Shown here: one piece after another, positions 3,890 through 35,811 of the stretch
Position numbering within the stretch: position 1 is the first letter of the stretch
Layout: each line of letters begins with the position of its first letter
Origin: a virus
Strand: one strand, 5' to 3'
IMG/VR virus record: IMGVR_UViG_3300035459_000030
Location: 1 to 35,811 of that record
DNA: 35,811 nucleotides
The notes under the pieces: model-generated
The model's input: the letters and a program-made list of their open reading frames with translations, nothing else
The model's database searches: none
Told to the model about the DNA's origin: nothing
Made by a program: the position numbers and the translations under genes

Positions 3890-3904
3890 TGACTTACTCC
3901 TTTA

Positions 3905-4310: not shown

Positions 4311-7079
4311 CTACGTCGTGGCGCCCTTGATGACAGCGAACCTGAGTGGCGTGGCCTCGGTGATCGTGGCGCCCGAGATATTGCGGACAGAGATCGTACA
4401 GGAACCGGCCGCTGGCAGCACGCTGAAGGACCAGGCCCCGCCATTCGAGCTGCTGTTATGCTGCACGTCGACAAAGTCGGTGGCAGCGATGACAGAATTT
4501 GTAAAGACAAAAGAGACCACATCGTTGGCGCCCTGCGAGCCGCTGAACATGGTGATCGTCCCGGCGTATTTATTCAGGGTCACGCCCGTCGCCCGGCTGG
4601 TGGCCTGGCCGATAGACCCCCCTGCCCCGGCCACGTAGCCGATGCCACCACCCGATGAAGTGAGCGCCCCAGTGACCGCCAGGGAACTGCCAGACGTGGC
4701 GCCAATGGCCTGCACGACCGTGAACGTACCGGAGCCGCTGAGATACTGGGATGGATTCCCGGACAGGGTTGGTAAAAATCCAGGGGAGCCGGAAGTAGCC
4801 AGGTTGTGCAGGGCGCCCCCGACCTGGGCACCATGGGCATGTACGTGGTTGCCATGTGAGGCGGAGCCGCTCGAGCCGACCGCCGCCGTGCCGATGGGCT
4901 GAGGCGTAGCCGGATCCAAAACCAGGCCGCCACCAGCCCCAGGCGCCGCACCAGTCCAGGTACTTGACCCGCTGTTATAAGTCAGGACGTGCCCGTTGGT
5001 CGTATCGGACAGGTCGACCTTCTTGCCCCCCAGGTAAAAACTCGTACTGCCCGGGGAGAACTGGGCAAAGTTATTCGAATCGACGCCCACAAGCTGTACG
5101 CTGGCGTTATTGGCAGCATTGGCGCCGGCTATATACTGGGCGTTTGGTAGGTTCATCCATTGGTCAAACTGGGTCGAGACGCCAAAGAATGAGCGGCCGT
5201 CGTACTGAATCTCGAAATTAGTGGCCTTGATCTGCATCGCATGGTAAGTCTTACCCGTCGAGCCGGCCGTGGCAGAATCGATATAGCCGGTCGACCCGCC
5301 GGAATCGTAGTACATATGCAGGCCGGACACCCCGCCCATGTAATTCTCGTCGCCCGTCCCTGTCGCAATAAATCGACCCTCCAGCCTGGCGTAGGCTCCG
5401 GCCGCTGAAGTGACTCCAAAAATGAAGTTGTTGGTGGATGAGTTGAGAGCGAAGCCCCAGAAGTACTGGTAGGGCATTTGATACAGAATAGCCGCATTAT
5501 AGGTATTGACCAGATCGGAATGCTGGTAGTTGCCAAAGACCATGGTGTAGTCGTCGTAAGCCGCCAGGATCGGGTCGTTGTACGTATTGCGAACCTTGAA
5601 GGCCAGGGCGCCCGTCCAGGCTGAATCGATCTTGACGTCCAGGAAGGCCGGGGCGTCGTGCTCGTTGGCGCCCGAATCGTTGACGTCGTAATTGATGATA
5701 AATTTATGATTCCCCAGGAGCTTCATGGCGAAGTCGCCGTTGTTGACGTACCAGGTGAAAGCCCCGTTGGTGGTCTGGACGTCCGTGGCGAAGTTGCCCG
5801 CCAGCACCGAATAAGGCCGTACACCATCGTTATCCGGAAGCTGAGACAGGAAGCTGAAGGCGCTGGCCGCCCACATGCCCAGGGACACCGGCCCCTCGTT
5901 CACCGCCTGCAGCCGCAGCGTGGTATCCCAGGTACTGGTCCCGCCATATTCGCTGGTGCCAGTCGTGACCACTTCGAGTGGCTCGGAAGGCGCTGAAGGG
6001 GAACCCTGGCGGTCGATCCGCAGACCATAAGACCCCTGGTCGAACTGGAACTGCGCCCTGCCATTGATTGAGGATGCCCCGCTATAGACCGTGACGTAGT
6101 TATTCGCTCCGCCCGATACTGCTCCACTGAAGGGCCGCCAGGCCGGAGAGCCTGAGAACACCTGTAGGGCGTAGCCGCTCGCACCCAGCGGCAGGCGTGT
6201 GGGCGTACCGCCGGCCCCAGCCCAGATCAGGTCACCCAGCGTGGTCATGGGGTTGGTCATGCCGCCCCCGCCACCACCGCTCCCGCTGCCGCCCTGGGCC
6301 AGGAACGTACGCCCGTCCACAAAGTCGGTGTAGTCCTTATCTTCGTGCGTGAACGTCATGCCGCCCCACAGCCTGACAGCCCCGATCATGATATTCCCAG
6401 TCGGGATAACCGGGTATTGGGACAGGGCCGGCGTGAAACCGGCGGCCACGGAGCCAGCCGTGAACTGCACCGTGGCGGCGGATCCGCTGATGGCGTACGA
6501 GGCCGCCACCATGCAGGATGAGCCTGAACCCGGAATGTAGGACGTCAGGTCGAATACCTGGTAGGGGATGTTGATCCAATTCCCGGCGAAGTAAATCAGG
6601 TCGGGCAGCACGGCCACGGCCGCAGAGCCGGAAGCGCCGGAGCCGCTGTAGTACGTGGCGGCAGTCAGCCGGCTCTGGGTGATCATGCGCTTATCCACCC
6701 AGACCGTATCTCCGCCATAAAGCGTGTGGGTAGAGGCGTGTGGCGGCACATTCATGTTGAACGTAGGGGTCGGAGCGCCGGTACCGGCGTATATATCCTG
6801 CTGGATCGTCCCCCCACTCAGAATCTGCAGCGTCGACGGCTCGTGCGGGTCGAAACCCACTACCACCGGCATGCCGTACTTCACCACAATACGCTTATTG
6901 AGCACTGAGACGGGCGGCATGTCGGCGGTCGAAACCCACACGTGGCCAGGGTTCGAGGGGTCGGTCAAGGTGCCGTCCGGCTTGCCTACGTAAGCAATGA
7001 CCCCTTTGGTATGCAAATCGACCTGGAACCTGGCCAGCCTCTGGTTTAGTTTAGCCCGCAGCGAATCCATCGTGCTCAT
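4311..7079 (-). CDS. Tail fibre / receptor-binding-type protein
   Basis: A 922-residue virion protein. The start is ATG at 7079 (MSTMDSLRAKL), overlapping the preceding stop as ATGA; an 84-residue longer open frame lies inside the upstream gene and is rejected. The N-terminal 110 residues look like a baseplate-attachment domain. At about 265-290 a Gly-rich linker leads into NPMTTLGDLIW and PTRLPLG, a motif common in phage fibres. A long beta-rich region follows. Around 715-750 is a TPQPIGTAAVGSSG segment with SHGNHVHAHG, resembling the repeat hinge of other fibres. No chaperone or autoprotease domain was recognised at the C-terminus. It probably contacts the host surface alongside the DGR-diversified protein. 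Confidence 0.75.
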   Translation of the reverse strand: MSTMDSLRAKLNQRLARFQVDLHTKGVIAYVGKPDGTLTDPSNPGHVWVSTADMPPVSVLNKRIVVKYGMPVVVGFDPHEPSTLQILSGGTIQQDIYAGTGAPTPTFNMNVPPHASTHTLYGGDTVWVDKRMITQSRLTAATYYSGSGASGSAAVAVLPDLIYFAGNWINIPYQVFDLTSYIPGSGSSCMVAASYAISGSAATVQFTAGSVAAGFTPALSQYPVIPTGNIMIGAVRLWGGMTFTHEDKDYTDFVDGRTFLAQGGSGSGGGGGGMTNPMTTLGDLIWAGAGGTPTRLPLGASGYALQVFSGSPAWRPFSGAVSGGANNYVTVYSGASSINGRAQFQFDQGSYGLRIDRQGSPSAPSEPLEVVTTGTSEYGGTSTWDTTLRLQAVNEGPVSLGMWAASAFSFLSQLPDNDGVRPYSVLAGNFATDVQTTNGAFTWYVNNGDFAMKLLGNHKFIINYDVNDSGANEHDAPAFLDVKIDSAWTGALAFKVRNTYNDPILAAYDDYTMVFGNYQHSDLVNTYNAAILYQMPYQYFWGFALNSSTNNFIFGVTSAAGAYARLEGRFIATGTGDENYMGGVSGLHMYYDSGGSTGYIDSATAGSTGKTYHAMQIKATNFEIQYDGRSFFGVSTQFDQWMNLPNAQYIAGANAANNASVQLVGVDSNNFAQFSPGSTSFYLGGKKVDLSDTTNGHVLTYNSGSSTWTGAAPGAGGGLVLDPATPQPIGTAAVGSSGSASHGNHVHAHGAQVGGALHNLATSGSPGFLPTLSGNPSQYLSGSGTFTVVQAIGATSGSSLAVTGALTSSGGGIGYVAGAGGSIGQATSRATGVTLNKYAGTITMFSGSQGANDVVSFVFTNSVIAATDFVDVQHNSSSNGGAWSFSVLPAAGSCTISVRNISGATITEATPLRFAVIKGATT

Positions 7080-10000
7080 AAGTCGGTGTACCTGCACCAG
7101 TTCAGAATGCTCATCTGCGCCAATTGTACCCGGGTGCTTAGGGTTCCCGAGAGGACCTTGCTGGCGATGCCAATTTTCCAGCTCTGGCCGTACGAGACGC
7201 TCGCCCAGGCATAACCCCAGTTGAGCGGCGGGTAGATAGACGCCACGCTGAAGGCGGAATTCTGGGAGTTGAAGTACCCCCGCAGGTTGTAGCCGTCGGT
7301 CGTGTCGACGTGGTCGAAGAACGCCGTCCAATAAGCCGCACCGTAAAGGCTTAGACTGAAGCCCGAATCATAGACCACGGCTCCGTCTGAATAATTGATC
7401 AGTCGGCCAAACGAGCCATAAACCCCGTTGCCGATATGCGGCAGGGGCCAGTCGACAGAGGCGTACACCCCCCAGCTCTGGGTGTGATAGGTGTGCTGCC
7501 CATCCCCGAAATAATACTGGTCGTTCGGGCCGCCGGTGGTCTCGATATAATACTCCGCCACGGATCCGCCAATCGGGCCGCAGTACGGCGCCATGTTGAC
7601 GCCGCCGGTGCTCCCGGAATTATTATAGTTACCCGTCCACTGGTTCTGATTCGAGCCGGCGTAGTAATACAGCGGAGAGCCAGATGCGACAATCGGACTG
7701 CCGCTGGGCGCATAAGTATAAGATGTTCCCCCACTTATTGCTGTGATCAGGAACCCGTACACCTCAACCATGCTCCCGGAAGTAAAAATAAACGGGCGGA
7801 CGCCCGAGACTGTGCCGTCGTAGTAAGCTGCAGACCCGGCCGCCACCGCTGTGATGATCGGGCTGCCAGAGATGTTGCAGCCCTGCACGGTCACGCCGTA
7901 CATATTCCCGGTGGGCACCCAGTCAGCGACGCCCGGAGAAGCCGATGTGGTGGTGTAGGTGCTCTCGTAAAGGTTGATAATAGTTGGGTAGACGGCGCTC
8001 GAAGGCCTGATCTTGCCGTGCCAGGGCAAGTACACGGAAACTGCGCCGCCCCCGATAGTCTGAATCGTCTTATTGATCGGTATCGTGACAGCCTGGGTAG
8101 TCTTCAGCCCCAGAGAGCACGGAGCACCAGGAAACCAGGGCGGCGTGTTGCCAGGCCCGATGGAATTGACTGGCGGCGTGGGGGTAGAGGGCGGCAGGGG
8201 CGTATCGTCGCCCGAGTAAAACGGCAGCCAATAACCGTCAATTGGAATGGTATTGCCTTCAGCCGTAACATCCGCCAGAAGCACGCCGCTCTTACTATCC
8301 CAGGTGTAATTCACCTGATTCGGGACCATATACTGAGACTGCATCGTGAAGCCCCGGGGGTTGTCGGCTGCCGCAATTGAAAGCGAAAAGAACTGGTTGG
8401 GAGCGATATCGATAAAACGGTTGTTGGCGGCCAGGGGCACGGTCACGCTTGGAAGTGGGTTGTTGGCGGACGCCAGCAAAAGTCCCGCCAGTTTATTTGT
8501 ACCGCTCTGCTGTCCAAACAGGGCGCCGTAACTGCCAGAAGTATTGGCGCTGACATACAGCTCGGTGGTATTCTGCATGGCGCCAAAGCGACCGGCCGCC
8601 GTACCCCAGGCGCCCGCCCTATATCCGTTGGGGGTAGTCCCGTCCCAGGTCATGGCAGTCGTGTCCTGGTAGCTAACCTGCTGCACCGTCTGGCGCTGAA
8701 TCTCAACCGTATCCCGCCAGTCTAGCTTCGCCACCTCCATCACGACCGGAATGCTTGTTCGTAAAAACGAGAGCACAAACTTGGTCGGCGGCATAAAATA
8801 AACCTTGCCATAGCGGTCGGAGTAAGGCTGAATCAGGCGCCGGCTCTGGCCAACCTGGGTGATCTGCCCCCAGACCGTGCCCCAGGGCGCCGTACTGCCC
8901 ACCATACGAACGGTGTCGCCGGATGGGTAGCAGTCCATGATCTCGCTGGCCGTCGAGCGCCAGCGAATGACGTGCCAGTAAAAGGCGTCCACGTTGAAGT
9001 TTTTGTACTGATTCCAGTTCGTCGGGTTCGTGGTCACGTCGATGATACCCGCCGGCCAGGACATGATCATATTGAGCCAGTAAGCCGGCCCGTCCACCGT
9101 AAACTGAACTGTGGACTGCTCCGGGTTGTACTCGATGGTTTGGCCGTCAATCCACCCCACAGCGATCAGATTCTCGTAACCAGGATACGGCCCCAGGTTG
9201 GCTGGCGACCCGCCATAATAGTCCTGGGTGCCCAGGAACACCTTGGCTCTATCGACGATGGCCGGTAGGGCAGCTTGGGCGTACATGGTGACCTGGAAGG
9301 ACCAGCCACCTGAATCGACGTCGCCCCGACACTCGTCGAGTGTGAGCATGGTCAAAAGCGGGTTGGCGTCGTTGTAAACAGCGACCACCCGGTGGCCGGT
9401 TGTGTAGCGGCTGGCGGTTGTGCCAACCGTACACGACACATCATACACGCCAGGCAAAGTGAAAGTGATAGTCGGATTGGCCACGGATCCGGAAGTAAAA
9501 GTCGCCCCCGACCCCGAGCACGCCCAGAGCCAGGTACTGACCGTGTCGCCGCTCCCTCCGACCGGAACCCAGGAAGGGGAAGCGTCCAGGGCCAGGGACA
9601 CAGAACCCCCCTGCAGGTAGAGCAAGGCGTCCGGCCCCATGATGGGTATCGGGTTCAGATAATAATGCTGGTCGGTATACGCCTGGTCATTGTCGATCAG
9701 CATATTCCCGGTGTTGATATCCAGAATGGACGTCTTGGGAAACAGACCGTACTCGTTGACAATGGTGATATAGGCATTGGTCTGCCACTGCACCTCGCTA
9801 GTCAGTCCGATCTTCAGCGTGCCCACGGCCCCGCTCGAGCCGCCCATGAAGCTGATGGAGATCAGGCGGAACGTGCCCAGGTCGTAAGCCCCCGGCGTAC
9901 TGCCCAGCCAGCCCGTCTGGTTGTAGGCCATGATCGCCCCGGCGGAGCCAGCGATAACATTGTAGAACTGAATCGAACCGACGTTGTCGTTGGATGCGGG

Positions 10001-10120
10001 CGCCGCCAGAACCTGGGCCTGTAGCACGACGGGCGGAGAGACTATGTACAGGCCCAGCTTCGAAAACTGCTGAACCTGACGCAATAAACTCTGCTCTGGG
10101 GCGGTGATGGGCCTGGTCAT
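7076..10120 (-). CDS. Large tail tip / baseplate protein with PKD-like domain
   Basis: A 1014-residue structural protein. Residues about 175-245 look like a PKD/Ig domain (VSTWLWACSGSG, then TFTLPGVYDVSCTVG). Residues about 250-620 resemble a phage tail-hub type region with many aromatic residues but no motif I can name. The C-terminal half is rich in Tyr, Gly and Ser and probably beta-structured (YYAGSNQNQW, GVYGSFGRLINYSDG). The start ATG at 10120 overlaps the previous stop (ATGA), and the stop overlaps the next start in the same way. Position two genes after the tape measure, before the fibre, suggests the distal tail tip or baseplate. Confidence 0.7.
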   Translation of the reverse strand: MTRPITAPEQSLLRQVQQFSKLGLYIVSPPVVLQAQVLAAPASNDNVGSIQFYNVIAGSAGAIMAYNQTGWLGSTPGAYDLGTFRLISISFMGGSSGAVGTLKIGLTSEVQWQTNAYITIVNEYGLFPKTSILDINTGNMLIDNDQAYTDQHYYLNPIPIMGPDALLYLQGGSVSLALDASPSWVPVGGSGDTVSTWLWACSGSGATFTSGSVANPTITFTLPGVYDVSCTVGTTASRYTTGHRVVAVYNDANPLLTMLTLDECRGDVDSGGWSFQVTMYAQAALPAIVDRAKVFLGTQDYYGGSPANLGPYPGYENLIAVGWIDGQTIEYNPEQSTVQFTVDGPAYWLNMIMSWPAGIIDVTTNPTNWNQYKNFNVDAFYWHVIRWRSTASEIMDCYPSGDTVRMVGSTAPWGTVWGQITQVGQSRRLIQPYSDRYGKVYFMPPTKFVLSFLRTSIPVVMEVAKLDWRDTVEIQRQTVQQVSYQDTTAMTWDGTTPNGYRAGAWGTAAGRFGAMQNTTELYVSANTSGSYGALFGQQSGTNKLAGLLLASANNPLPSVTVPLAANNRFIDIAPNQFFSLSIAAADNPRGFTMQSQYMVPNQVNYTWDSKSGVLLADVTAEGNTIPIDGYWLPFYSGDDTPLPPSTPTPPVNSIGPGNTPPWFPGAPCSLGLKTTQAVTIPINKTIQTIGGGAVSVYLPWHGKIRPSSAVYPTIINLYESTYTTTSASPGVADWVPTGNMYGVTVQGCNISGSPIITAVAAGSAAYYDGTVSGVRPFIFTSGSMVEVYGFLITAISGGTSYTYAPSGSPIVASGSPLYYYAGSNQNQWTGNYNNSGSTGGVNMAPYCGPIGGSVAEYYIETTGGPNDQYYFGDGQHTYHTQSWGVYASVDWPLPHIGNGVYGSFGRLINYSDGAVVYDSGFSLSLYGAAYWTAFFDHVDTTDGYNLRGYFNSQNSAFSVASIYPPLNWGYAWASVSYGQSWKIGIASKVLSGTLSTRVQLAQMSILNWCRYTDL

Positions 10121-19613: not shown

Positions 19614-19876
19614 GACCCGCCTCCTGGGGGTTTATTCCAAACCGATTCGTAAAAGTAAGTTTTATCCAGCGCCGTCACATAGCGGGGGTCGTCCAGGAAC
19701 TTCACCCACACCTGCAGCGGGCGGGGATCGGGATAGAGCACGCCAAGGTCGGCCCGGTACAAATAAAATTTCTGGGTGTGGTCATCCTTGCGCTCCTTCT
19801 CGTCGTTGGGAAGCAAGAGCCAGGCGTCTGGCCCATCCCGGCCAACCGGGTACAGATCAGCGAGTGTCGGGGGCAT
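19610..19876 (-). CDS. Small hypothetical protein
   Basis: An 88-residue protein rich in Asp, Pro and aromatic residues (PTLADLYPVGRDGPDAWLLL, QKFYLYRADLGVLYPDP). The chosen start is ATG at 19876, three bases after GAGGTGG; a TTG four codons upstream is less likely. It overlaps the end of the previous gene by 20 bases and the next by ATGA. No function recognised. Confidence 0.6.
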   Translation of the reverse strand: MPPTLADLYPVGRDGPDAWLLLPNDEKERKDDHTQKFYLYRADLGVLYPDPRPLQVWVKFLDDPRYVTALDKTYFYESVWNKPPGGGS

Positions 19877-22046
19877 ATTCCACCTCAATTCCCATATCTT
19901 TCAACTTAGCCTCCACTATCTTGTAACGGTCAGAGAGTTGAGGCTTCCCGCCTCGCATACCCCACTCCCCTTCAAAACAAGAACTATGGAACACCACCTT
20001 CTGTACCTCGGCCAACTCAACCCCGCCCGTTATTTGAGCCTCCATGTACGACGACCAGCCCTTCAACCCAGCGCCCCGGGGATGATCCATGAGATCTTCA
20101 ACCTCCCCGTCCAGGCCCTCGATATCAGGGTTCAGAAGGGGTGTACCGCATAGCGACCCGTTGGCAAAATCTCCGAGCGAATCTCCGCAGGTGATAGTGG
20201 TGCGCTTCTTCACTTCCTCTTTCATGACTAGCTTGATCTCGCCATAAGATTCGGCGTCGGAGCCAGCGCCTTCGATGTAGCCGTAAATCGGCCGCAGGTG
20301 GGGCGTGATTTTGACGCCGTCCTTGAAACCCATGCCGTACATCTCGGCCCGGTTGCGATGTGAAGGGGACAGACAACCTTCCGACCTACCCGTCTCGAAC
20401 TGCGTCTTGAACCGCCCATCCCCATCGATCACTCTCGTCATGGCGTCAATACCCGTACGCTTACAGAGCGGCTTGTCCTTCACAGAGGCCCGGAAGTAGT
20501 CCAGAACCTTTTTTCTTGCACTGGCGACAGTCGTTTTATGCCGCCTGGCCCAGTCGGATATTTCGGTTTCCGCATGATTCCGGGCATTCTCCAGATCTTC
20601 GCCCTTGGCCTGGTACAGCGGCTTCTCGGCCTTACGGATATACTCCCGGGCTGGATCCGCTGGCGGTGCCTTGAGCGGAGCATGAGGCTTGGCGGCCGCA
20701 GCACCAGGCTTGGCTGGAGCGGGGCGGGGAGCGGGGGCAGGGGCTGGCACCTTGGCCTCCCGGGCCTCCCGGATCTTCACGGCGTACCGATCCCGGATAT
20801 TGTTGGTCATCTCAACCATTTCGTTGTCGAGGGTCTCAAGATCGGACCCCGAGAGCTTTTCGGCTGCAATCTCACGGGCTTTATCCCGGAACTCAATCAC
20901 GCCGTCAATATCCGACGTAACAGAATGCTGCAGGGCGTACAACTTATCATTCTTCCCGATCTTCGCTTTTACCCGCAGGTAGATCGCCCGGATGCCGTCG
21001 CCAGCGACTTCGGCCTCGATGGGCTTGACCTCGTCGGGTGTCAGATCGGGCAACGCTGAAGCCGGAGCCGGCGCTGCACCCAGGCCACCGTCAGGACGCA
21101 TCCCAGGCCCAGGCATCGGTACACCGCTGGTGGGTCTGACCGTCACAAACCTAGCCGGCAGAGCCGCAGGACCAGCACCCGCAGCCTTCTTGCGCTCCCG
21201 TAGTTCTGCGATACGAATAGCAGTCACGGCACGATCAAACGTACTTTTATCCTCCGCTCGCATCAGAGCGCCTCGCATAGAATGAACTACATAGTCGTAA
21301 CGCTTCTTTCCGCTAAGACCCAATTTTCCAGCCATATCAAAAGCCAATACAGGATCATCGTCCGGACCAGGATAAGCCAGCTTCAGGCGCCTCATCCCCT
21401 CGCCCTCCCAGAATGTTTCAGGGGCGGCCGGGGCAGGTGTCCCGAATACAGCGTCCAGGATCGCCCGATCCCTTGCCTCCATCGTGGGACTGCGTGGGGG
21501 CGCCGTGGGGGCTTTTGGCGGTACAGCCGACACAGATGCCACTGCGGCTGGCTTTGGGGGCACTGTGGCCGTCCTGGGGGCGGGTGGCGCAACCGGAGCG
21601 GCGGAGACACGTGGCGGGCCGATCTTCTTGCCAGGCTCGAACACACCCGCCTTCTTGCGCTCCCGCAGCTCTGCAATGCGGACTGCAGTCATGGCGTGGT
21701 CGAACTTGTCACGGTCAGCACCGGAGAGCTTCGCTCGCAAGCCGGCCGCCATAAAATCATAAAGAGCCTTACCTTTCAGATCGTCGGGGGCGGCCGCCAT
21801 AATTTCAGGCAAGTCATGGTCTCCCCCTGGGTAAGCCTCGACCAACCTCCTTGCGCCGACCACGGTGAAAAATTTATCCCGGTCGTACGCAGGCGCCTTG
21901 GCCGGCGCCTCAGCCGCAGAAGCGGCAGCTGGTTCACCGCCGCCGCCACCTTTCGGGGCAAACTCGCCGCCACCCCCTTCCCCTTTCGGTACCCGGGGAT
22001 GCTCGGTCGGGTCGAAATCAACCTTGATCATTCTTGGCAGCGTCAT
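19857..22046 (-). CDS. Minor head-associated protein with possible ADP-ribosyltransferase-like C-terminus
   Basis: A 729-residue protein in three parts. Residues 1-40 carry HPRVPKGEGGGGEFAPKGG, a motif also present in the kinase-like protein upstream. Residues 55-440 hold Ala/Pro-rich linkers and repeated helical modules: RIAELRERKKA occurs twice, and the module with VKAKIGKNDKLYALQHSV is shared with the kinase-like protein. The C-terminal 200 residues read SEGCLSPSHRNRAEMYG, SYGEIKLVMKEEVKKRTTIT-CGDS and SSYMEAQITGGVELAEVQKV. This resembles DUF3626-type domains that have been linked to the ADP-ribosyltransferase fold, with possible Arg, Ser and Glu positions; I hold this link loosely. ATGA overlap with the Mu F-like gene. 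It may be packaged in the head and ejected. Confidence 0.6.
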   Translation of the reverse strand: MTLPRMIKVDFDPTEHPRVPKGEGGGGEFAPKGGGGGEPAAASAAEAPAKAPAYDRDKFFTVVGARRLVEAYPGGDHDLPEIMAAAPDDLKGKALYDFMAAGLRAKLSGADRDKFDHAMTAVRIAELRERKKAGVFEPGKKIGPPRVSAAPVAPPAPRTATVPPKPAAVASVSAVPPKAPTAPPRSPTMEARDRAILDAVFGTPAPAAPETFWEGEGMRRLKLAYPGPDDDPVLAFDMAGKLGLSGKKRYDYVVHSMRGALMRAEDKSTFDRAVTAIRIAELRERKKAAGAGPAALPARFVTVRPTSGVPMPGPGMRPDGGLGAAPAPASALPDLTPDEVKPIEAEVAGDGIRAIYLRVKAKIGKNDKLYALQHSVTSDIDGVIEFRDKAREIAAEKLSGSDLETLDNEMVEMTNNIRDRYAVKIREAREAKVPAPAPAPRPAPAKPGAAAAKPHAPLKAPPADPAREYIRKAEKPLYQAKGEDLENARNHAETEISDWARRHKTTVASARKKVLDYFRASVKDKPLCKRTGIDAMTRVIDGDGRFKTQFETGRSEGCLSPSHRNRAEMYGMGFKDGVKITPHLRPIYGYIEGAGSDAESYGEIKLVMKEEVKKRTTITCGDSLGDFANGSLCGTPLLNPDIEGLDGEVEDLMDHPRGAGLKGWSSYMEAQITGGVELAEVQKVVFHSSCFEGEWGMRGGKPQLSDRYKIVEAKLKDMGIEVEYAPDTR

Positions 22047-23127: not shown

Positions 23128-25305
23128 TTACCTCACCATCCCCTCGAGCTGAGAGATGCCGTAGTCGCAGGCTTCTTTCCAGTTCTTTTCGAATTGATCC
23201 ACGGTGACGTGGCGCTTCGCCAGGTCGGCGGCCCCCACCCCCTGGCCGTAGTGCTCCTTAACCAACTGACTAAACTGCGGACTGTTCACGAACGCCTTGA
23301 CCTTGGCGACGTCCTCTTTTTTGACCACCTTATTGACACGGTCGCCCGTCAGGGCAGCACAATATGTGTCGCAGTTCGAAGCGCACCGGCCCAGGATGTG
23401 AGCATGCGGCTCGCCCCGGCCGGCCTCCAGGCCGACCAGGCCATTGTCGACACCCCGCATCTCACCCGTGGCCTCGTCGTACATCCAATTGCCAGGGTTG
23501 CGGTCACGGTTGGCCAGGCCGTAGTCGAAGGCGATCATCTCAGAGACTGAAGCCCGCAGGGCCGGCGTATCCTTCACGCCGCCCCGGTGGTACAGCACAT
23601 CCGAGCCACGGATGCCAGTCTCCAGCCACGCCTGCATCGAATAGGTGCCCTTCTTGCCCGTCACCGGGTCGTCGGCCTCTTTGTACGAAGTCGGCTGGAG
23701 CACGTGGAAGCCGGCCAGGACAGAAGCTTCGTAGGCACAAACCTCGGAAGGCGGGAAGCCGTACCGGCTGCCCTCGCTGGTGCTGGTGCCCTTCATACAG
23801 GCATCGGCATCGCCCTCCACGTGCATGTGGAAGGTGGTATCGTCATTGATACCGCCGCCCTTGATCTCGTCGACCAGCGAAACAGGGTTGTCGTGGTACA
23901 TCTGCAAGAGCTTGGCGTGAACCGGGGACACACGGGCCAGAATCGAAGCGTGAAAAGCATCCCCACTCAGCACGCCATGGGCCTTCTTATCCTCCAGGGC
24001 CTTGGCCTGCGCCGCAACCCATTCGTTGCCGGCAGCGAGATAATGCTCATTCATCGCAGCGGCAGACATTTTATCGCCGCCCACCGCCTTCAGCTTATTC
24101 ATAAAAGCCAGCATGTCATTCTCGGGGTCGGAGCCGGCGTCCGCCTGTTTCCAGGCCCGCAGCACCTCGCCGCCTCGAATGCCATGAGCGATGGCAGTCT
24201 CAGCCAGGCTGTCGATATGCTTATGCCAGATCGGGGCTGCAATGGCCTTGCGCTCGTGGTCGTCCAGAGTAACAGACTTGACCGGAACCGGAGCCGCAGG
24301 CGGAATGGGCTTCTTGGCTTCACGGGCCGCCTTTACCCTGTCGTCGAACTCGTTTACAGCGTTCTGGGCGATTGAGTCAATCTCGTCCATCTCGCCCGGG
24401 CGACCATTGCGCTCTAAAATATCCCTGACCTGCTGATGAAAATACACTATCCCAGTCAGATCTCGCCCAGCTTTATGCTGGAGGGCAAACAGCTCATCAT
24501 TCTTGCCGATCTTGGCCTTGGCCTTCAAGTACATACTACGGATGGCGTTGGTGGCTACATCGGCCTTGATATTAGCCACCTCGGTTGTGCTCAGGTCTGG
24601 CAGCCCGGAAGTGCCAGTGCCCGCCGCAGCCGGAGCTGAAGCGCCGCCAAAGGCGCCCCCGACCGGGCGTACGGCAAAGCCCTTGGGTGCAGGCTTCGCC
24701 GCCGGAGCAGCCGCAGGCGCTGCAGCTCCAACGTGCTTGGCCTTGATGCCGCCAGCGCCACGCCAGCCGGCCACACGGAGCTTCTCTCGCATGGCCTTGA
24801 ACTCGGCGCCCTTGCCCTCTATATCGGCCGCTCTTTGTACAAAGCCGGCCATGTATTTGAAACCTTCCTCTGGATCCTTAGAAGCCCCGATATCAATGGC
24901 GTCCCGATAAGCCTGCTCGAAGTTTGAAGGGTCCATGGCTAATTCGTCTTTGCCATAGTCCCTCATCTGGCGGATGGCGTTGGCATAATGCTTGGCCTTG
25001 AACCTTGCCACCGATTCCTTGCCGCCCGTACTAACGTCCGCCGTGGCCGGGTAGTGCGGCTTCTTGGCAGCCGGAGCGGCTGCGGCAGCCCCAGCGACCG
25101 CACCGCCCTTGGGAGCGAACTCGCCCCCGCCCTTACCGCTGGGAACCCGGGGATGCTTGGTGGAGTCGAACGCCTTATCCAGATCGTCTGGCCAGACCAC
25201 CTTGATCATGCGTGAGCCAGGCACCGTCTCGATCTCCACCTGCTCCAGATGCTTGGTGTGGTGCCGTACAGCCAGTTTCAATTGGTTCCGGATAGAGACC
25301 TTCAT
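23128..25305 (-). CDS. Kinase-like protein (PI3K/HipA-related fold) with phage N-terminal modules
   Basis: A 725-residue protein. The start is ATG at 25305 (MKVSIRNQLK) with GGGAGGTG upstream and ATGA overlap with the portal stop; 46 extra open codons upstream are rejected. Residues about 42-65 carry STKHPRVPSG then GGEFAPKGG. The middle holds helical modules with KAKIGKNDELFALQHK, shared with the 729-residue protein downstream. The C-terminal 230 residues look like an atypical kinase: ACMKGTSTSEG (candidate ATP-binding Lys near 503), EVCAYEASVLAG (Glu), VLQPTSY, then ANRDRNPGNWMYD near 600 and GVDNGL near 620, equivalent to the catalytic and metal-binding loops. Catalytic residues appear intact. 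The substrate is unknown. Position suggests a virion-associated or ejected enzyme. Confidence 0.7.
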   Translation of the reverse strand: MKVSIRNQLKLAVRHHTKHLEQVEIETVPGSRMIKVVWPDDLDKAFDSTKHPRVPSGKGGGEFAPKGGAVAGAAAAAPAAKKPHYPATADVSTGGKESVARFKAKHYANAIRQMRDYGKDELAMDPSNFEQAYRDAIDIGASKDPEEGFKYMAGFVQRAADIEGKGAEFKAMREKLRVAGWRGAGGIKAKHVGAAAPAAAPAAKPAPKGFAVRPVGGAFGGASAPAAAGTGTSGLPDLSTTEVANIKADVATNAIRSMYLKAKAKIGKNDELFALQHKAGRDLTGIVYFHQQVRDILERNGRPGEMDEIDSIAQNAVNEFDDRVKAAREAKKPIPPAAPVPVKSVTLDDHERKAIAAPIWHKHIDSLAETAIAHGIRGGEVLRAWKQADAGSDPENDMLAFMNKLKAVGGDKMSAAAMNEHYLAAGNEWVAAQAKALEDKKAHGVLSGDAFHASILARVSPVHAKLLQMYHDNPVSLVDEIKGGGINDDTTFHMHVEGDADACMKGTSTSEGSRYGFPPSEVCAYEASVLAGFHVLQPTSYKEADDPVTGKKGTYSMQAWLETGIRGSDVLYHRGGVKDTPALRASVSEMIAFDYGLANRDRNPGNWMYDEATGEMRGVDNGLVGLEAGRGEPHAHILGRCASNCDTYCAALTGDRVNKVVKKEDVAKVKAFVNSPQFSQLVKEHYGQGVGAADLAKRHVTVDQFEKNWKEACDYGISQLEGMVR

Positions 25306-28253
25306 CCCGCACCTCCCTCGGTCATCGGTGTCGGCAGCGGGGGAACCATGGGAATCATGCGAGCCTTGTACACGTCCACCGCTCGCTGCAGAGCGTTTGC
25401 GACCGCCTGCTCGTCCTCCAGGCAGTTGCGAATGTCGGACCACAGGTCGTGGTTGCCGATAATGAGATAAACCGAATCGATCAACTCGGGGTTCAGCGGC
25501 CGGCCCCTGACAGCGTCCACAAATGTGCTGTGCAGCTCCTGGTCGGCCTTGACCGGGAAGGCCAGGTCGCTGTCGATCAGCACCGGCCGGCCGTCGTCAT
25601 CCGGGTGGGTCAACCAGTTTTTGTTGAAGCGGTCGACCTGGCCGGAGATGTAGTCCAGCACCGCCGCCTGCTGCACCCAGGCTTCGTCGTATTCGTTGAC
25701 GTCCTTACGCTGCTCCCGGCCCTGTACGTAGTGCTGAATCGAGCCAGGCTTGCCGTCCAGTTCGTCCATCCAGGTGACCGGCACCAGGTAATGGTTCACG
25801 TCGGGCGCCAGCTCCCGGTCGAGAAGGTAAACCGCCTCGGCCCGCCGGTACATCTCGCCTCCCACCCACTCCTGCAGATCCTTCTTCTCGCCGTCCAGCG
25901 GCTTCCAGACCGCCGGCCTGGGTTCCTGGTTGACCCCACCCACAGATACGATCATGGCGTCATTGGCGCCCTGGTGCGGCATGGGTACAGCCAGCGGGTG
26001 GGTGACCGGGGCACCGTAATACTGCTCGTCCAGAGCGTCCACCCCGCAGGTCTTAAACAAATCCAAGCCGGCCAGGAACTTCTCAGCCAGGCCAGCGTCC
26101 TCGAGCTTGTCGTAATAATGCGGATCCTCTTTTAAGTGGTCGAGCGCCACCTGGGCGATCTTCGCCTGATCGCCGCCCAGCGTACCAGCGTGCTCCTGCT
26201 CCTCTTTCAAGCCAGCAAACCACTCAAACATGGTGATCTTGTCCCAGTCGACCCCGAGCTGCTCACCCAGGTCGAGCATGGCATCTTCCTGCGCCTCTTC
26301 GTTGTCGAGCGACTCGGCATCGGTCACCGGATCGCCGGCAGCGTCGTCAGCGCCCAGGGCCTTCTTCACCCGCAGCGGCTGCTTGAGCACCGATACCATG
26401 TGGTTGAGCACCTGAACGGTCTTGTGGTCTTTGACGTCGATAGCGCCGTGCAGTCCACCAGGCTTCACGCCAATCGGGCCATCCAAACCACCGCCACCAT
26501 CTGACCCGTCGTCCTGTGCAGAACCCTTGCCGCCCAGGGGAGCCATCTGCTGGCCCTTCTCGCCGCCCAGCGGCTCCATGTTGATGCCGCCCCGGTATTC
26601 GTCCAGGGTGATGCCGCCAATCTGGAAGCGGGTGGCAAACTTGGCCTCTTCTTTGTCGGGGTCGATGCTCTCTTTGGGGAACATCAGTTTGAAGAACGTG
26701 CCATCGTAGCCGTTCTCAGTCAGCGTCTCATTGAAACAGCCCTCGATATACGACTGCAGGGGACTGATACACATACGGTAAAAGGCCGAGCTCATCGCCT
26801 CAGCAAAGCCCTTGCCCCCCAGCATGCCCTCCGGAGCCTCACCTACCTCGGATTTCGGGATGCCGGCCGATATGCGTACGGCGTTTGAAGCCACGTCGTA
26901 GGTCTCCTGGTTGAAGGTCATATCCTTGACCGCAATCTGGGTCATGCCGGCAGGCATAAATCGCACCCTGGCCGCCCGTTCTTGCAGATTGCCGCCCATG
27001 CGGTCGTTGTATTCGTCCTCGTACTGGAATATCTTCTCAGGGGAAGTCCACTCGGGCGGAGAAGCCAGCATCATCTCAGGCAGCGTGCCGGTAGTGTACT
27101 TGGCCTGCTCGTAAGTCCACAGGTTGGCCAGCAACAGCACAGCGCCTATGCTATCCTCGATGAACGTCTTGCCATAAGGCGCATCGGGCCGCAGGTAGCG
27201 GGGCCGGTACAGAAGCTGGCGCGTGTTGAGATACATCCTCGGCGTGCCCCAGATCACCTGGGTGAAGGCCGGAGCCGGCGGCTGCGGTTGCTCGCCTCGC
27301 TCGTCGATCACGCTAAAGATGGTCGAGCCGTCAATGATCCGCAGGCCGACCACCGGGGCGTTAGCCAGCTTCGCCAGCTTGCCCTTGAATAGCTTATCGT
27401 GCTGGATCGCATCGCCGTCGATCTCAGTCATCTGGTGCTGAGTGAGCGATTCGCCGCAGTTACGGCAGCGCTTCTCGCTGACGTCAGTCTTGGCTAAGTC
27501 GTAATGGTAAACATTGGCCTGACCGCAATTGGTACAAAACCAGCGCACCTGCGGGATAGCCGTCTCGTTCTCCCAGATATGGGTCAGGTCGCAGGGCTTG
27601 TAGACCTTGCCCTTCAGCATGCGCTGCGGCTCGCCCGAGATATCACGGATGCGGTACAGCGCCGGCGCATCGTAGGCCAGAACGTTGAAGATAAAACGAG
27701 AGAGCCAGACCGGCCAGGGGTTGAAGCGGTCAGGCTTGGTGGTCATCCATTCCATTTCGGGTATCTTAACCGGCTGGTCGTTCTTATCCACCAGGGTCGG
27801 GTTGAACGCCTTCAGCTCCTCGGTGGGCAGCCGGATGCAGAGAGCGACCTCCGGCACGTTCAGGGCGTAGTTCTTCAGATCGCTGAACGCCGTCAGGTTG
27901 TAAGCCAGGCGGGGACTGATGGTGCTGTTGACAGACGGCACGTACTGGAATGAGCGTGGCTCGGCATTGCGCTGCTCTTCCGAGAACGTCTCGTTCGTCC
28001 AGGGCCGGCCAGGCCCCATCCATTCATTGGCCCAACTGCCCGGCACGTTGTTGTGCCTCGGGGGCCGCAGCGTATCGACTACCTCGATTGGGCCATTCGT
28101 GCCATTATTGGACTGTACACCCGTGGGTGTTGACAAGCCGGTCGTGACGTTTACCGGGTGAGCCGGCGCCTGCGCCAGACCGCCCAAGACCGGGACGCCG
28201 GGCGCTTTCCTTAGCCCGTCTACAAAGCCGTTTACGGCTTCTCGTAGTCCCAT
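25302..28253 (-). CDS. Portal protein with C-terminal kinase-like domain
   Basis: At 983 residues this is about twice the usual portal length. Residues 1 to about 590 form the portal: WPVWLSRFIFNVLAYDAPAL, the YRPRYLRPDAPYGKTFIED clip/wing segment, and RISAGIPKSEVGEAPEG with a stem-crown helix. A Cys cluster (CTNCGQ then CRNCGES near 235-265) may bind zinc. Residues about 640-760 contain ALDHLKEDPHYYDKLED, a motif seen in other phage structural proteins. Residues about 780-900 look like a kinase: AVWKPLDGEKK (Lys), RRAEAVYLLDREL (Glu), VPVTWMDELDGKPGS, DYISGQVDRFNKNWL (catalytic loop) and LIDSDLAFP (metal site). Strong GGAGGG site. The fusion puts a kinase-like domain at the DNA-entry vertex of the virion. 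Confidence 0.82.
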   Translation of the reverse strand: MGLREAVNGFVDGLRKAPGVPVLGGLAQAPAHPVNVTTGLSTPTGVQSNNGTNGPIEVVDTLRPPRHNNVPGSWANEWMGPGRPWTNETFSEEQRNAEPRSFQYVPSVNSTISPRLAYNLTAFSDLKNYALNVPEVALCIRLPTEELKAFNPTLVDKNDQPVKIPEMEWMTTKPDRFNPWPVWLSRFIFNVLAYDAPALYRIRDISGEPQRMLKGKVYKPCDLTHIWENETAIPQVRWFCTNCGQANVYHYDLAKTDVSEKRCRNCGESLTQHQMTEIDGDAIQHDKLFKGKLAKLANAPVVGLRIIDGSTIFSVIDERGEQPQPPAPAFTQVIWGTPRMYLNTRQLLYRPRYLRPDAPYGKTFIEDSIGAVLLLANLWTYEQAKYTTGTLPEMMLASPPEWTSPEKIFQYEDEYNDRMGGNLQERAARVRFMPAGMTQIAVKDMTFNQETYDVASNAVRISAGIPKSEVGEAPEGMLGGKGFAEAMSSAFYRMCISPLQSYIEGCFNETLTENGYDGTFFKLMFPKESIDPDKEEAKFATRFQIGGITLDEYRGGINMEPLGGEKGQQMAPLGGKGSAQDDGSDGGGGLDGPIGVKPGGLHGAIDVKDHKTVQVLNHMVSVLKQPLRVKKALGADDAAGDPVTDAESLDNEEAQEDAMLDLGEQLGVDWDKITMFEWFAGLKEEQEHAGTLGGDQAKIAQVALDHLKEDPHYYDKLEDAGLAEKFLAGLDLFKTCGVDALDEQYYGAPVTHPLAVPMPHQGANDAMIVSVGGVNQEPRPAVWKPLDGEKKDLQEWVGGEMYRRAEAVYLLDRELAPDVNHYLVPVTWMDELDGKPGSIQHYVQGREQRKDVNEYDEAWVQQAAVLDYISGQVDRFNKNWLTHPDDDGRPVLIDSDLAFPVKADQELHSTFVDAVRGRPLNPELIDSVYLIIGNHDLWSDIRNCLEDEQAVANALQRAVDVYKARMIPMVPPLPTPMTEGGAG

Positions 28254-30271: not shown

Positions 30272-30361
30272 TTATCGGACGTGCGTAGCCTCGATCTTGC
30301 CGCGTAGTCTGTCAAAAAGTGTGTCGCTCTTACACCAAACAAATGCGTCTGCGTTGCTCAT
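30272..30361 (-). CDS. 29-residue ORF coupled to the DGR-side gene
   Basis: A short frame, starting MSNADAFVWCKSDTLFDRL and ending EATHVR. Its ATG overlaps the stop of the 119-residue gene as ATGA, which is the coupling used throughout this operon. No other evidence of coding. Too short to assign. The remaining 44 bases before the small terminase start hold no clear signal. Confidence 0.35.
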   Translation of the reverse strand: MSNADAFVWCKSDTLFDRLRGKIEATHVR

Positions 30362-30717
30362 GATGTCAATTTCGACCTCATCGCCGCCAGCACCTGGGCA
30401 TACGTGCTGGTTACATTGGCCGTCGCAAAGCCCTGCGCCGCCAGCCATTGGTTGAGCTGCAATCGTATCCCGGCCGGAATAACCACAATATAAGTTGCTC
30501 CCGACAGATCCATCGCCCTGGCCTGTAGCACCTTCGCAAAATCTGCAAAAACATTCTGGATATTCGTGACAGCATCGGACGCTACACCCGCCAGGTCGAA
30601 GGCGCTCAATGGAACCGTATTAATCTGCACATCGCAATAACCATTGCCGTCCGGCGCAACCTGCGTGACATACTCAACAATCTGGCCGAACAGGGGAATA
30701 GGCGCGTATTTAGGCAT
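30358..30717 (-). CDS. Hypothetical protein downstream of the DGR reverse transcriptase
   Basis: A 119-residue protein overlapping the end of the reverse transcriptase gene by 8 bases. It begins with PKYAPIPLFGQIVEYVTQVA and has a helical remainder (AVTNIQNVFADFAKVLQARA, IPAGIRLQLNQWLAAQG). It is not a recognisable Avd four-helix accessory protein, although its place (next to the RT) and helical C-terminal half make an accessory role possible. It could equally belong to the terminase side. Confidence 0.6.
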   Translation of the reverse strand: MPKYAPIPLFGQIVEYVTQVAPDGNGYCDVQINTVPLSAFDLAGVASDAVTNIQNVFADFAKVLQARAMDLSGATYIVVIPAGIRLQLNQWLAAQGFATANVTSTYAQVLAAMRSKLTS

Positions 30718-31744
30718 AGTGACTGATCACTCCTTTCGCTAATCGCAAACTTACTTTTGGCTTGACATATTTATTGTAAAAATGATAACTATTACTCCTC
30801 TTGATCCAGCCCCAATAAGACACCACTGCACATGCATCTTGATAGGTCATCATCTTTTTACCGCCAATCTTGGCCATCCTTCTTCGGATGCGTAGGGCAT
30901 TCCGTTTGCGCAGTATTGTCTTATCCCGGAAAAAACGTAATCCCAAAAAATCAATTGCTCGCTTCGTTATCAAGAATACCTGCCAGTCCTGTTTGAGCGT
31001 TAGGTGAAGCGTGGCGAGATATTCGCTGATAGCTATCCTTACCTGGTGTAGTTTGCGTTTATTGCTGCCCGGGATAACCAAATCGTCAACGTAGCGCAGG
31101 TAATACTTCGCTCCAAATTTCTCTTTAATCAAATGATCCAGGTCCTGTAATAAGAAATTAGATAGCCACTGGCTGGTATAGTTCCCGATCGGCAAACCCT
31201 GCGGATTACTATCGATAATTATGTCCAACAGCCACAGGCAGTCGGCGTCCTTGATGTGCTTCCTTAGGATTGCCTTGAGTATTTCTCGGTCAATGGATGG
31301 ATAAAATTTAGAGATATCCATCTTCAGGCAATATTTGGTGCCTTTGTAATCTCTATCCAGCCATTTGCGCAGCGCCTTCTGGGCGTAGCTCGTTCCTCGC
31401 CCAGGAACGCTACCGCAGGTATATTCATACATTCCGCGTGTAAATACGCCATGCAGTTGCAGCATCAGCGCCCAATGGATGATTTGGTCGGGATAATAAC
31501 GCGGTTTGTAAATCGTGCGCTCCTTGTTGCTCGACCGATCCTGGATGGTTTTGATCGTGTATGGCGACGGGATATAGGTTCGCCCCGTCAAAATTTTTTG
31601 AATTTCCCTTGCATAGAAATCCGCGTTATCCATAATTCTCTTGACATACCTTCTATCGCGCTTACCAATCGAGGAACGCTTGATCGCCTCCTTGATATTT
31701 TCGATCTCACAAACCTTTTCGTAGATGTGACCAGTTCGTTTCAT
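30710..31744 (-). CDS. DGR reverse transcriptase
   Basis: A 344-residue reverse transcriptase of the diversity-generating retroelement class. It begins MKRTGHIYEKVCEIENIKEA, like other DGR RTs. Motif A is KMDISKFYPSID (Asp143). The motif-4 region GLPIGNYTSQWLSNF at 183-197 has the IGN-x-x-SQ form diagnostic of DGR enzymes. The polymerase aspartates are RYVDD at 217-221. No maturase, nuclease or thumb extension beyond the compact DGR size. It copies the TR RNA with errors opposite adenines. The start has AAGAAGG upstream. The TR lies 127 bases before the gene, in the usual target-TR-RT order. Confidence 0.95.
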   Translation of the reverse strand: MKRTGHIYEKVCEIENIKEAIKRSSIGKRDRRYVKRIMDNADFYAREIQKILTGRTYIPSPYTIKTIQDRSSNKERTIYKPRYYPDQIIHWALMLQLHGVFTRGMYEYTCGSVPGRGTSYAQKALRKWLDRDYKGTKYCLKMDISKFYPSIDREILKAILRKHIKDADCLWLLDIIIDSNPQGLPIGNYTSQWLSNFLLQDLDHLIKEKFGAKYYLRYVDDLVIPGSNKRKLHQVRIAISEYLATLHLTLKQDWQVFLITKRAIDFLGLRFFRDKTILRKRNALRIRRRMAKIGGKKMMTYQDACAVVSYWGWIKRSNSYHFYNKYVKPKVSLRLAKGVISHYA

Positions 31745-31870
31745 AAGACCTTCTTATTAGCCTCAAGGTGGTTCGGTTTCCCTACTAAACCCTGCTCTTT
31801 ACGGCCTGATTTTCACCAAGAGGTGGGGAATATAAGATGCAAATATTTCATAACCATCTCTAATAAGAGT

Positions 31871-31974
31871 CCGGCCGCCGATGTTGACGTTCGCATTCCC
31901 GGAGGTGTTGTTCAGGTTCCAGTAGAACAGGCCCGCATTCGACCCGTTGTTCCAATTCGCACCAAACATCGCAA
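31871..31974 (-). repeat. DGR template repeat (TR)
   Basis: A 104-base segment matching the 3' end of the target gene without gaps. It differs at 17 positions, all T on the plus strand, that is, A on the coding strand (17 of its 24 adenines). No G, C or T of the coding strand is changed. Read in the target frame it codes for ten Asn codons, the usual adenine-rich AAC/AAT design that allows broad substitution. Confidence 0.97.
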
Positions 31975-32024
31975 GCACGCATCCTATATCCCTTTTTGAT
32001 TTATAAAGAACAAGAAAAGCAAGA

Positions 32025-32042
32025 CTGGGGGGAGACCCCCAG
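32025..32042 (-). other. Hairpin downstream of the variable region
   Basis: A perfect 7-bp GC-rich stem with a 4-base loop (GAGA on the plus strand, TCTC on the coding strand). It lies 27 bases past the VR, just beyond the target stop codon. Known DGRs carry a GC-rich hairpin or cruciform with a tetraloop here that raises retrohoming efficiency. The T-rich sequence beyond it could also make it a terminator. Confidence 0.7.
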
Positions 32043-32047
32043 ACCCC

Positions 32048-33406
32048 CTAAAGAGCCTTTCTAAGAAGCCGGCCGCCGAGGGTGACGCCCGCATCCCCGG
32101 AGGCGTTGCTCAGGTTCCAGGAGAACAGGCCCGCAGCCGACCCGCCGCGCCAAGACGCACCAAACAGCGCAATTCTTTGTCCGGTAGAGGAGTAATAGTA
32201 GTCTGAGTAGTATGTGCTTGATGCGGCCCCGACAGCGGTCGGGAGCGCTGCGTATGGATGTGCGGCGTCGTAGCCGAGCGCGGTCGAGTAACCATCTATT
32301 GAGCCATCGGCGTACGAGAGTTGTTCGTACGGGGAAGCAAACAGGTTGCTGGCGTAGCTGGCCGGATCTGCGCAAACCCAGGCCTGGCGCTCGTTGATAT
32401 TCAGCCCATCGACAAACTGGTAAATCGAGCCCCACGGATTTTCGATGCCCCGGTAAACGCAGGGGTGTTTGGCATCACTGTTGCTCGCGATGGAGCCAGT
32501 TTTAGCGACAACTGCATCACACGCACCGGATTTCCAGGCGACGTTATAAAGCATATTACCAATTGCGATATTGACCGCAGCGCCATCAAAACTAACGGCT
32601 TTGTTACTTCCATCGTAAACATCGATGGAAGTGATATTACGTCCATAGCAGATCTGGTTTCCGCCTTGAGTTGTGCCAATTCCAATTGGCTGCCCAACCG
32701 TAAATGCGGCGGCGTTTGCATTGGAGACCACGATCCTGTTGACTCCGCTCTCTGCTACAGTCGCCGTGTGCGTGGCATCATATTGCCCACCCGTCCAACC
32801 CTGCATAATGCTCTGGCTGTTCAGTGTGGCGAACTCAACCAAAAACAATGTTTGCAGCACATCTATGGCGTGGATGTCGAGTTGCTGATAACCCGCGCCG
32901 TTGGCCTGTGCGTATCCCCGGATATCAACAATGTTTTTGTTGATCAATGGATAGACGCCACTCTTGCTTTCTAATTTATTGGCGCCGCTAAGCGAGGCAT
33001 TGTATTTACCGATGTCCACATACGGCAGGATCAACCCACTGGCGCCAACAAAACATTTAGGCAGGTAGGCTGAGCCAAATGGGTTGCGCGAGATGCGCCA
33101 GGTCATTGCTGGAGCATTGTTCTTTTTCTCGATGTAGAATTTAGGGATACGGATAAAAACGTTGCCCAACCCATCAGTGACCTGAGTGATGCTACGGTAA
33201 ATGTCGGCATTGTCAAAGTTGTTGGTAACTACATCACTATCTACACCGGCAGCCGCAACCATGCCAACTGACGCATCGGTGCGGGTCAATGTTGGGCTGG
33301 AACCGCCATTCCAAGATACGCCATAAATGGGCGCAACCCCTCCCCCTCTCAGCGTCCCCTGCCCTGGAACTTGCCTTCCAATTGTTGGCAATCTCAATCC
33401 TGGCAT
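32048..33406 (-). CDS. DGR target protein with variable C-terminus
   Basis: A 452-residue protein. It begins with a short attachment segment, then YGVSWNGGSSPTLTRTDAS, a beginning seen in phage DGR tropism-type proteins. The C-terminal half (VYRGIENPWGSIYQFVDGLN, then ALFGASWRGGSAAGLFSWNL, NASGDAGVTLGGRLL) has the C-type-lectin / formylglycine-enzyme-like pattern with W, G and D residues that surrounds exposed variable sites. The last 35 residues are the VR. Eight of the ten template Asn codons have been replaced (S, R, G, A, S, D, G, T). A strong GGAGGTG site precedes ATG at 33406 and overlaps the end of the homing endonuclease gene. It is probably a tail-tip receptor-binding protein. Confidence 0.92.
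   Translation of the reverse strand: MPGLRLPTIGRQVPGQGTLRGGGVAPIYGVSWNGGSSPTLTRTDASVGMVAAAGVDSDVVTNNFDNADIYRSITQVTDGLGNVFIRIPKFYIEKKNNAPAMTWRISRNPFGSAYLPKCFVGASGLILPYVDIGKYNASLSGANKLESKSGVYPLINKNIVDIRGYAQANGAGYQQLDIHAIDVLQTLFLVEFATLNSQSIMQGWTGGQYDATHTATVAESGVNRIVVSNANAAAFTVGQPIGIGTTQGGNQICYGRNITSIDVYDGSNKAVSFDGAAVNIAIGNMLYNVAWKSGACDAVVAKTGSIASNSDAKHPCVYRGIENPWGSIYQFVDGLNINERQAWVCADPASYASNLFASPYEQLSYADGSIDGYSTALGYDAAHPYAALPTAVGAASSTYYSDYYYSSTGQRIALFGASWRGGSAAGLFSWNLSNASGDAGVTLGGRLLRKAL
32069..32172 (-). repeat. DGR variable region (VR)
   Basis: The 104-base counterpart of the TR at the 3' end of the target gene. It ends on the coding strand in an unmutated GGCGGCCGG block, with a divergent sequence beyond, which fits an initiation-of-mutagenic-homing site. 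All changed positions are adenines in the template. Confidence 0.97.
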
Positions 33407-33915
33407 GTCACACCTCCACGTCCGATAATGCGACTCAAATCATGCTGGTACAATTTGTCACCCGAGTCTCTTGGGGGATTCTTCAACTCTTTCATAATGG
33501 CATGATACCAAGTCAATTGCTCTTCCATTTTCTCTCTTTCAACTCTACTGCACATTTTGTAGCCTTTTTTATATTCCATGAAATCCATCACAATTTTCGC
33601 TTGGTCTTTTTTGCCAATAAGATATGGGAATATCGCATCCAAAACTTCAATCGTTTGATCTTGATTTAGCTTCCAGTGCCAGGCATCATGCTTGAATGTC
33701 GTAACTGTTCCAAGGTTATAGTAATGCACATAACCAATCCCGGTAACCTCCCGGCACCATTCAACAACATTCTTACTGCATATATTAACAATTAATTCAA
33801 GCCTATATCCAAACGTTTTACATCGTTTTTTCTTAGATCGCACAATTCCGATATATCCTTCGCCGTCAATTATTCCTGCGAGATATGCTTTTTGTGCTTC
33901 AGTCATATCTTTCAT
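33394..33915 (-). CDS. LAGLIDADG homing endonuclease
   Basis: A 173-residue protein with one LAGLIDADG motif, YLAGIIDGEGYIGI, at residues 12-25, containing the acidic metal-binding residue. A basic stretch follows (SKKKRCKTFGYRLEL), then DAIFPYLIGKKDQAKIVMDF. A single motif implies it works as a homodimer. Its AT-richer DNA differs from neighbours, suggesting recent arrival. It stands free between two virion genes, three bases after one stop and overlapping the start of the DGR target by 13 bases. Its cleavage site is probably in a related phage at this junction. Confidence 0.85.
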   Translation of the reverse strand: MKDMTEAQKAYLAGIIDGEGYIGIVRSKKKRCKTFGYRLELIVNICSKNVVEWCREVTGIGYVHYYNLGTVTTFKHDAWHWKLNQDQTIEVLDAIFPYLIGKKDQAKIVMDFMEYKKGYKMCSRVEREKMEEQLTWYHAIMKELKNPPRDSGDKLYQHDLSRIIGRGGVTCQD

Positions 33916-35653: not shown

Positions 35654-35811
35654 GCGTCGCATCCGCCAGGCGAGCCAGGGCAAAAGACTGGATACGGTCA
35701 ATCCGGCCACGAATCTCGGAGATGGTCTCGTCGTTCCGAGCCAGTATATTCTTGACCATGATACGGTCAATCCGGCCACGAATCTCGGAGATGGTCTCGT
35801 CGTTCCGAGCC
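35643..35811 (-). CDS. Coiled-coil repeat protein, C-terminal part only
   Basis: A frame open from the right edge to TAA at 35643-35645, about 55 residues. It shows a 23-residue unit (ARNDETISEIRGRIDRI followed by MVKNIL) whose first 17 residues recur at once, then a terminal ALARLADATLAK. The charge and hydrophobic spacing suggest a coiled coil. Function unknown. Confidence 0.6.
   Translation of the reverse strand, partial: ARNDETISEIRGRIDRIMVKNILARNDETISEIRGRIDRIQSFALARLADATLAK
35691..35811. repeat. Direct repeat, 52 bp, spaced 69 bp
   Basis: The 52 bases at 35691-35742 recur exactly at 35760-35811. The offset of 69 bp keeps the reading frame (23 codons). The second copy stops precisely at the window edge, as expected if assembly ended inside a longer tandem array. 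Confidence 0.85.

Follow-up and report, generated by a model that had tools for sequence, protein, structure and literature searches.

A phage-borne diversity-generating retroelement cassette with an RT-18 RNA between its template repeat and reverse transcriptase

Diversity-generating retroelements (DGRs) acting on phage tail proteins are well known. The phage DNA analysed here (35,811 nucleotides, positions 1 to 35,811 of IMG/VR virus record IMGVR_UViG_3300035459_000030, called the window below) contains a reverse transcriptase (RT) gene next to a repeat pair and a tail-type gene, and a previous sequence-only reading took this locus for an active-looking DGR. Do these parts form a complete DGR, is it in use, and does anything set it apart from the systems already described? 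Past adenine-specific transfer between the repeats, an intact RT frame, a hairpin, a structured RNA and a predicted protein fold are all seen in the window. These five independent lines bear out the DGR interpretation, since the repeat differences are adenine-specific, the RT is of the DGR type, the hairpin is present only at the variable repeat (VR), the spacer RNA is RT-associated and the target is predicted to have a variable-protein fold. Taken as an explanation of the mechanism as a whole, a complete, phage-borne DGR is almost certainly what the cassette represents. The cassette is of a known kind, and nothing marks it out within its clade, which is widespread. What goes beyond the ordinary is found only at the level of the clade, namely the lack of Avd, the RT-18 RNA and the hairpin loop rule.

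The repeat pair and the reverse transcriptase

All parts of the cassette lie on the minus strand, and the open reading frames together with the alignment confirm that RT, TR, VR and target gene are present in order. In the sense direction, the target gene (33406-32048) is followed by a hairpin (32042-32025), the template repeat (TR, 31974-31871), the RT-18 RNA (31825-31750), the RT gene (31744-30710) and a gene for a 119-aa protein (30717-30358). The locus had been delimited as 31871-33406. This interval encloses TR, VR and target, while the RT gene lies outside it.

A repeat search of the record returns 31864-31974 and 32062-32172 as a repeat pair with a spacing of 198. Direct alignment places the TR at 31871-31974 (104 nt; in the VR frame it reads AMFGANWNNGSNAGLFYWNLNNTSGNANVNIGGR) and the VR at 32069-32172. 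Within this 104-nt minus-strand core 17 differences are observed, and all 17 fall on TR adenines, as was claimed. The TR contains 24 adenines, seven of which are unaltered in the VR, as is normal for DGRs, and the 80 non-A template positions are identical in the VR without exception. For 17 randomly placed differences in 104 nt, the probability that all fall on the 24 adenines is 2.5e-14. Twelve codons are altered, all 12 non-synonymously, and the changes mainly lead from TR AAY codons to S, R, G, A, D or T. The statement that no other base is affected is true for the core; past 31871 the repeat continues for another 7 nt, in which an A>C and a C>T are found (GGACTCTTA in the TR, GGCTTCTTA in the VR). 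This is the usual site of the differences between IMH and IMH*, so that they are expected at this boundary. By position and TR/VR comparison the proposed IMH is located at the VR 3' end (32062-32077, GGCGGCCGGCTTCTTA), and the alignment places the proposed IMH* at the TR 3' end (31864-31879, GGCGGCCGGACTCTTA), differing from the IMH by the A>C and C>T just described. The VR 3' end is conserved among relatives. A single VR is found in the whole 35.8 kb record, with no further ones.

The RT is full-length (344 aa, 30710-31744) and is matched by RVT_1 (8e-14) and by PHROG 1423 (4e-107). Its best solved match is PDB entry 8ub7 (6e-28), with group II RTs well behind at 3e-12. 8ub7 is the BPP-1 DGR RT complex, and the aligned residues agree with the length of the BPP-1 RT, 328. 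Motif 4 of the window RT, GLPIGNYTSQ, aligns with GIPIGSLTSQ of 8ub7, and the catalytic YVDD is intact. An SQ dipeptide in motif 4 is a DGR signature (PMC3521204). Judged by its motifs and by the PDB match, the RT fits the DGR type, with a motif 4 of the form [I/V/L]GxxxSQ and an intact YxDD.

The closest named phage RT found is that of Lactobacillus phage LBR48 (NC_027990), with 52.6% identity to the window RT. In LBR48 as in the window, RT-18 lies directly upstream of the RT and a small gene overlaps the RT end. Fragments of a target homologue are present at the start of the LBR48 record, the target being only partly within it. LBR48 is a different phage, and the likeness rests on the RT, RT-18, the target fragments and the small gene.

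Hairpin, spacer RNA and target protein

Five nucleotides past the target stop codon, a hairpin scan detects a hairpin or cruciform (32025-32042, minus strand; CTGGGGG-TCTC-CCCCCAG in the sense direction; shuffle p 0.001), which lies 3' of the VR and has no counterpart at the TR. The same scan on BPP-1 recovers the known GCGGGGCC-GAAA-GGCCCCGC. Across 56 distinct clade loci, a hairpin above the score threshold is found after the VR in 40, and after the TR or before the VR in none. In published phage DGRs the hairpin loop is functionally important and reads GRNA on the sense strand (PMC3240598). The window loop, TCTC (GAGA on the opposite strand), is off this sense-strand rule. Among the 43 four-nucleotide loops of the clade, one fits GRNA on the sense strand and 14, including that of the window, fit it on the opposite strand.

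The spacer between TR and RT contains RT-18 (Rfam RF03021; 31750-31825, minus strand), recognised by its covariance model with 67.9 bits (gathering 41.3). It occurs at the same position in 19 of 19 relatives tested. A pattern search with the RT-18 sequence returns 18 viral contigs, none of them new to the RT set. An RNA-first genome search gives a handful of matches, two of which (L184 and L185) had not been reached through the RT; in both, the RT-18 match is next to this RT and to a repeat pair of the adenine type. Rfam assigns no function to RT-18, and its RF03022 is the bacteriophage DGR RNA. Given the constant spacer site and the RNA-side matches beside this RT, the simplest reading is that in this clade RT-18 forms the 3' part of the DGR template RNA, as its proposed scaffold. 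A literature search for RT-18 by name found nothing, the paper that defines the RT motifs lying outside this search. The same spacer (31750-31830, minus strand) also gives weak matches to Rfam RT-17 and RT-4, hinting that these may be DGR RNAs of sister clades.

The target gene (32048-33406, minus strand) encodes a tail-type protein of 452 aa. The VR lies in its 3' end, where it accounts for about 34 residues close to the C-terminus. Searches of Pfam, NCBIfam and PDB sequences give no match for the target, which is placed only by PHROGs (PHROG 5302, tail protein, 7e-47) and by fold comparison. An AlphaFold model built with 33 homologues (pLDDT 88.9, pTM 0.88) predicts a C-type-lectin fold. Its best structural match is TaqVP, the DGR variable protein of Thermus aquaticus (5vf4; Foldseek 2e-9; VIA Z 26, 277 residues), the nearest fold but with only 19% identity. 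The model also matches Treponema TvpA (Z 13), BPP-1 Mtd (Z 11) and other proteins of the C-type-lectin/FGE fold. Unlike TaqVP, the target additionally resembles unrelated tail-type beta-domains at residues ~206-291, for example T5 pb9 (Z 6-9), a likeness in the model that may reflect a common arrangement only. From its predicted fold, its family and its context, the target would likely be a receptor-binding protein. A fibre-type target is also suggested by the gene after the RT, which stands in the slot taken by a tail-fibre-assembly gene in some relatives.

The overall design is that of BPP-1 (mtd/avd/TR/brt), with the VR in the 3' end of the target, followed downstream by TR and then RT, an IMH-type end, a hairpin with a four-nucleotide loop after the VR, a structured RNA between TR and RT, and a tail target of C-type-lectin fold. 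The two systems differ in the avd gene, which in BPP-1 lies between mtd and TR and is not found in the window; in the loop, GAAA in BPP-1 and TCTC here; and in the spacer RNA, Phage_DGR (RF03022) in BPP-1 and RT-18 (RF03021) here. The phage-dominated DGR clades described by Roux et al. 2021 (PMC8144416) have tail targets of C-type-lectin fold and are broadly active in metagenomes; the window resembles them in its phage tail target and its predicted fold.

By analogy with the established DGR mechanism, a transcript spanning TR and RT-18 would fold, be bound by the RT and be copied to cDNA, with misincorporation by the RT opposite template adenines. The cDNA would replace the VR at the target 3' end, guided by IMH/IMH* and the hairpin. 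A hairpin that follows the VR and not the TR would make this transfer one-way. Such transcription and cDNA synthesis would take place in this phage as well. This would vary roughly twelve residues close to the C-terminus of the tail protein with its predicted C-type-lectin fold, and the protein would probably serve in host binding. Variation of the VR could in this way change the host range.

Activity in the clade and alternative readings

About 60 distinct relatives have the same VR-TR-RT layout. Their pooled TR/VR changes comprise 1074 A>N and 57 at bases other than A, an excess that is partly built in because the scan favours A mismatches. Two relatives, L012 and L015, have the same TR and show no difference over 2431 bp of sequence outside the repeats, while their VRs differ at 20 of 102 positions, all 20 at template A; the L012 RT is 63% identical to the window RT. 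Among L017, L018 and L019 the pairwise VR differences are 5, 18 and 19, with 5, 17 and 18 of them at template A and 0-1 differences in the flanks. Other near-identical pairs have identical VRs and are unremarkable. Because L012 and L015 share TR and flanks and diverge in the VR solely at template adenines, sequence comparison argues that the clade diversifies its VRs in nature. The description of the locus as active-looking is thus upheld for the clade, and from its relatives we infer present activity in this very phage as well. The window DGR is very probably functional.

It could still be argued that the VR was diversified once and that the DGR is now inactive in this phage. An exact-pattern search in IMG/VR for its TR/VR finds no second copy, and there is no second isolate of this phage for comparison; no Avd is found, and seven of the 24 template adenines are unaltered in the VR, normal as this is. 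Against such a relic, the RT frame, YVDD, motif 4, RT-18 RNA, IMH and hairpin are all intact. Decay would be expected after a loss of activity, yet the non-A positions of TR and VR are all still identical. Furthermore, close members of the clade that carry these parts and likewise lack Avd vary only at template A. We therefore consider a relic unlikely and keep to a functional DGR.

Avd is essential in BPP-1. In the window record and in the records of 14 relatives, all of which may be fragments, no match to PF22296 or to the BPP-1 Avd is found; BPP-1, the positive control of this search, is detected. An accessory gene of this phage could thus be located beyond the end of the contig. PF05635 is useless as an Avd probe and gives no match even in controls, the BPP-1 Avd being PF22296. 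One explanation, to which we give slightly less than an even chance, is that the clade is an Avd-free DGR variant, whose RT would recognise the compact RT-18 fold as the template scaffold and use a non-GRNA hairpin loop. If this is true, RT-18 could be reassigned as a DGR RNA, like RF03022, and the clade would offer a compact DGR for studying the requirements of the RT and its RNA in adenine mutagenesis. The clade is widespread and active, apparently dispenses with Avd and has a short, well-defined RNA between TR and RT; the window itself adds one clean case to the known mechanism of phage tail-protein variation.

Alternatively, the 119-aa protein could be an accessory that replaces Avd. Its gene (30358-30717, minus strand) overlaps the RT stop codon and has homologues in the same slot in most relatives. 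In a screen around 58 RTs, apart from target and RT, only the gene after the RT recurs as a sense-strand partner that the window also has. A gene overlapping or abutting the RT stop belongs to one family in about 38 of the 58 loci, which come from largely unrelated phages, and to a second family in about 10 more, the connected groups behind these counts including a few spurious members. One member, compared with 50,697 phage records, gives no match. On the other side, the second family has its matches among tail-fibre-assembly proteins, within the first some proteins are fused to CBM5/12 carbohydrate-binding domains, and the conserved core comprises only about 40 residues. The tail-fibre-assembly matches and the CBM fusions make it more likely that the slot gene is fibre-linked and belongs to a tail-fibre operon following the target. 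A substitute for Avd thus seems improbable, and the simplest reading is a fibre operon in which TR and RT are inserted between the gene for the fibre and that for its partner.

An RT from another system (group II intron, retron or defence RT), with a TR/VR pair that arose as a duplication unrelated to it, is next to impossible: models for group II intron and retron RTs do match, but with 91 against 300 and 85 against 235 bits, far below the curated NCBIfam cut-offs, the best solved match is the BPP-1 DGR RT, the repeat differences are adenine-only, and about 60 relatives retain the repeat pair beside this RT, with the adenine pattern recurring.

Genomic setting and further observations

The DGR had been assigned to the virion region. 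This is not the case here: terminase genes come after the cassette in the window record, so that the cassette precedes the virion block and is not within the tail module. In the partly related contig L016 the same cassette sits within the tail module, and L016 and the window share tape-measure-like and large tail-like proteins. The other phage genes of the window are nearly absent from the flanks of the remaining relatives, which indicates that the cassette is shared and the phage is not. The separate fibre that the sequence-only reading assumed in addition to the target goes back solely to two large unassigned proteins (4311-7331 and 7076-10120).

Directly upstream of the target gene, and overlapping its start, a LAGLIDADG-like homing endonuclease gene is found (33394-33915, minus strand; Pfam 6.5e-4, just below the cut-off; PHROG 5046, 1.6e-19). 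It is not found at the loci of the relatives. Two relatives show additional repeats. L050 has one TR and two candidate VRs (4414-4529 and 4594-4711); the second VR has several non-adenine differences, which suggests that it is older and decaying. In L031, an imperfect duplication of 1.1 kb (196-1307 and 3580-4691) lies upstream of the RT and is possibly a duplicated target gene.

Two large head-region proteins of the window (23128-25443 and 19857-22046, minus strand) seemingly have a repeated internal segment in common; a weak match of the PI3/PI4-kinase type is found in the first and a DUF3626 match in the second. Towards its C-terminus the portal-type protein (25302-28253) additionally matches DUF5661 and, weakly, TIGR03843. 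The record closes exactly with a perfect direct repeat of 52 nt (35691-35742 and 35760-35811, 69 nt start to start), which may represent a tandem repeat within a gene or have arisen at an assembly end. Near the other end, a Ro60-like protein is encoded (129-1657, minus strand; TROVE 3e-15, and vWA). Just upstream of its gene, YrlA (Y RNA-like) is matched at 1550-1616 with 33.9 bits (E 9e-6), below the gathering value of 69, and ARAGORN calls a tRNA-His with the unusual anticodon atg at 1583-1657. The supposed tRNA probably corresponds to the tRNA-like portion of a Y RNA, and protein and RNA together would represent a phage-borne Ro60/Y RNA pair.
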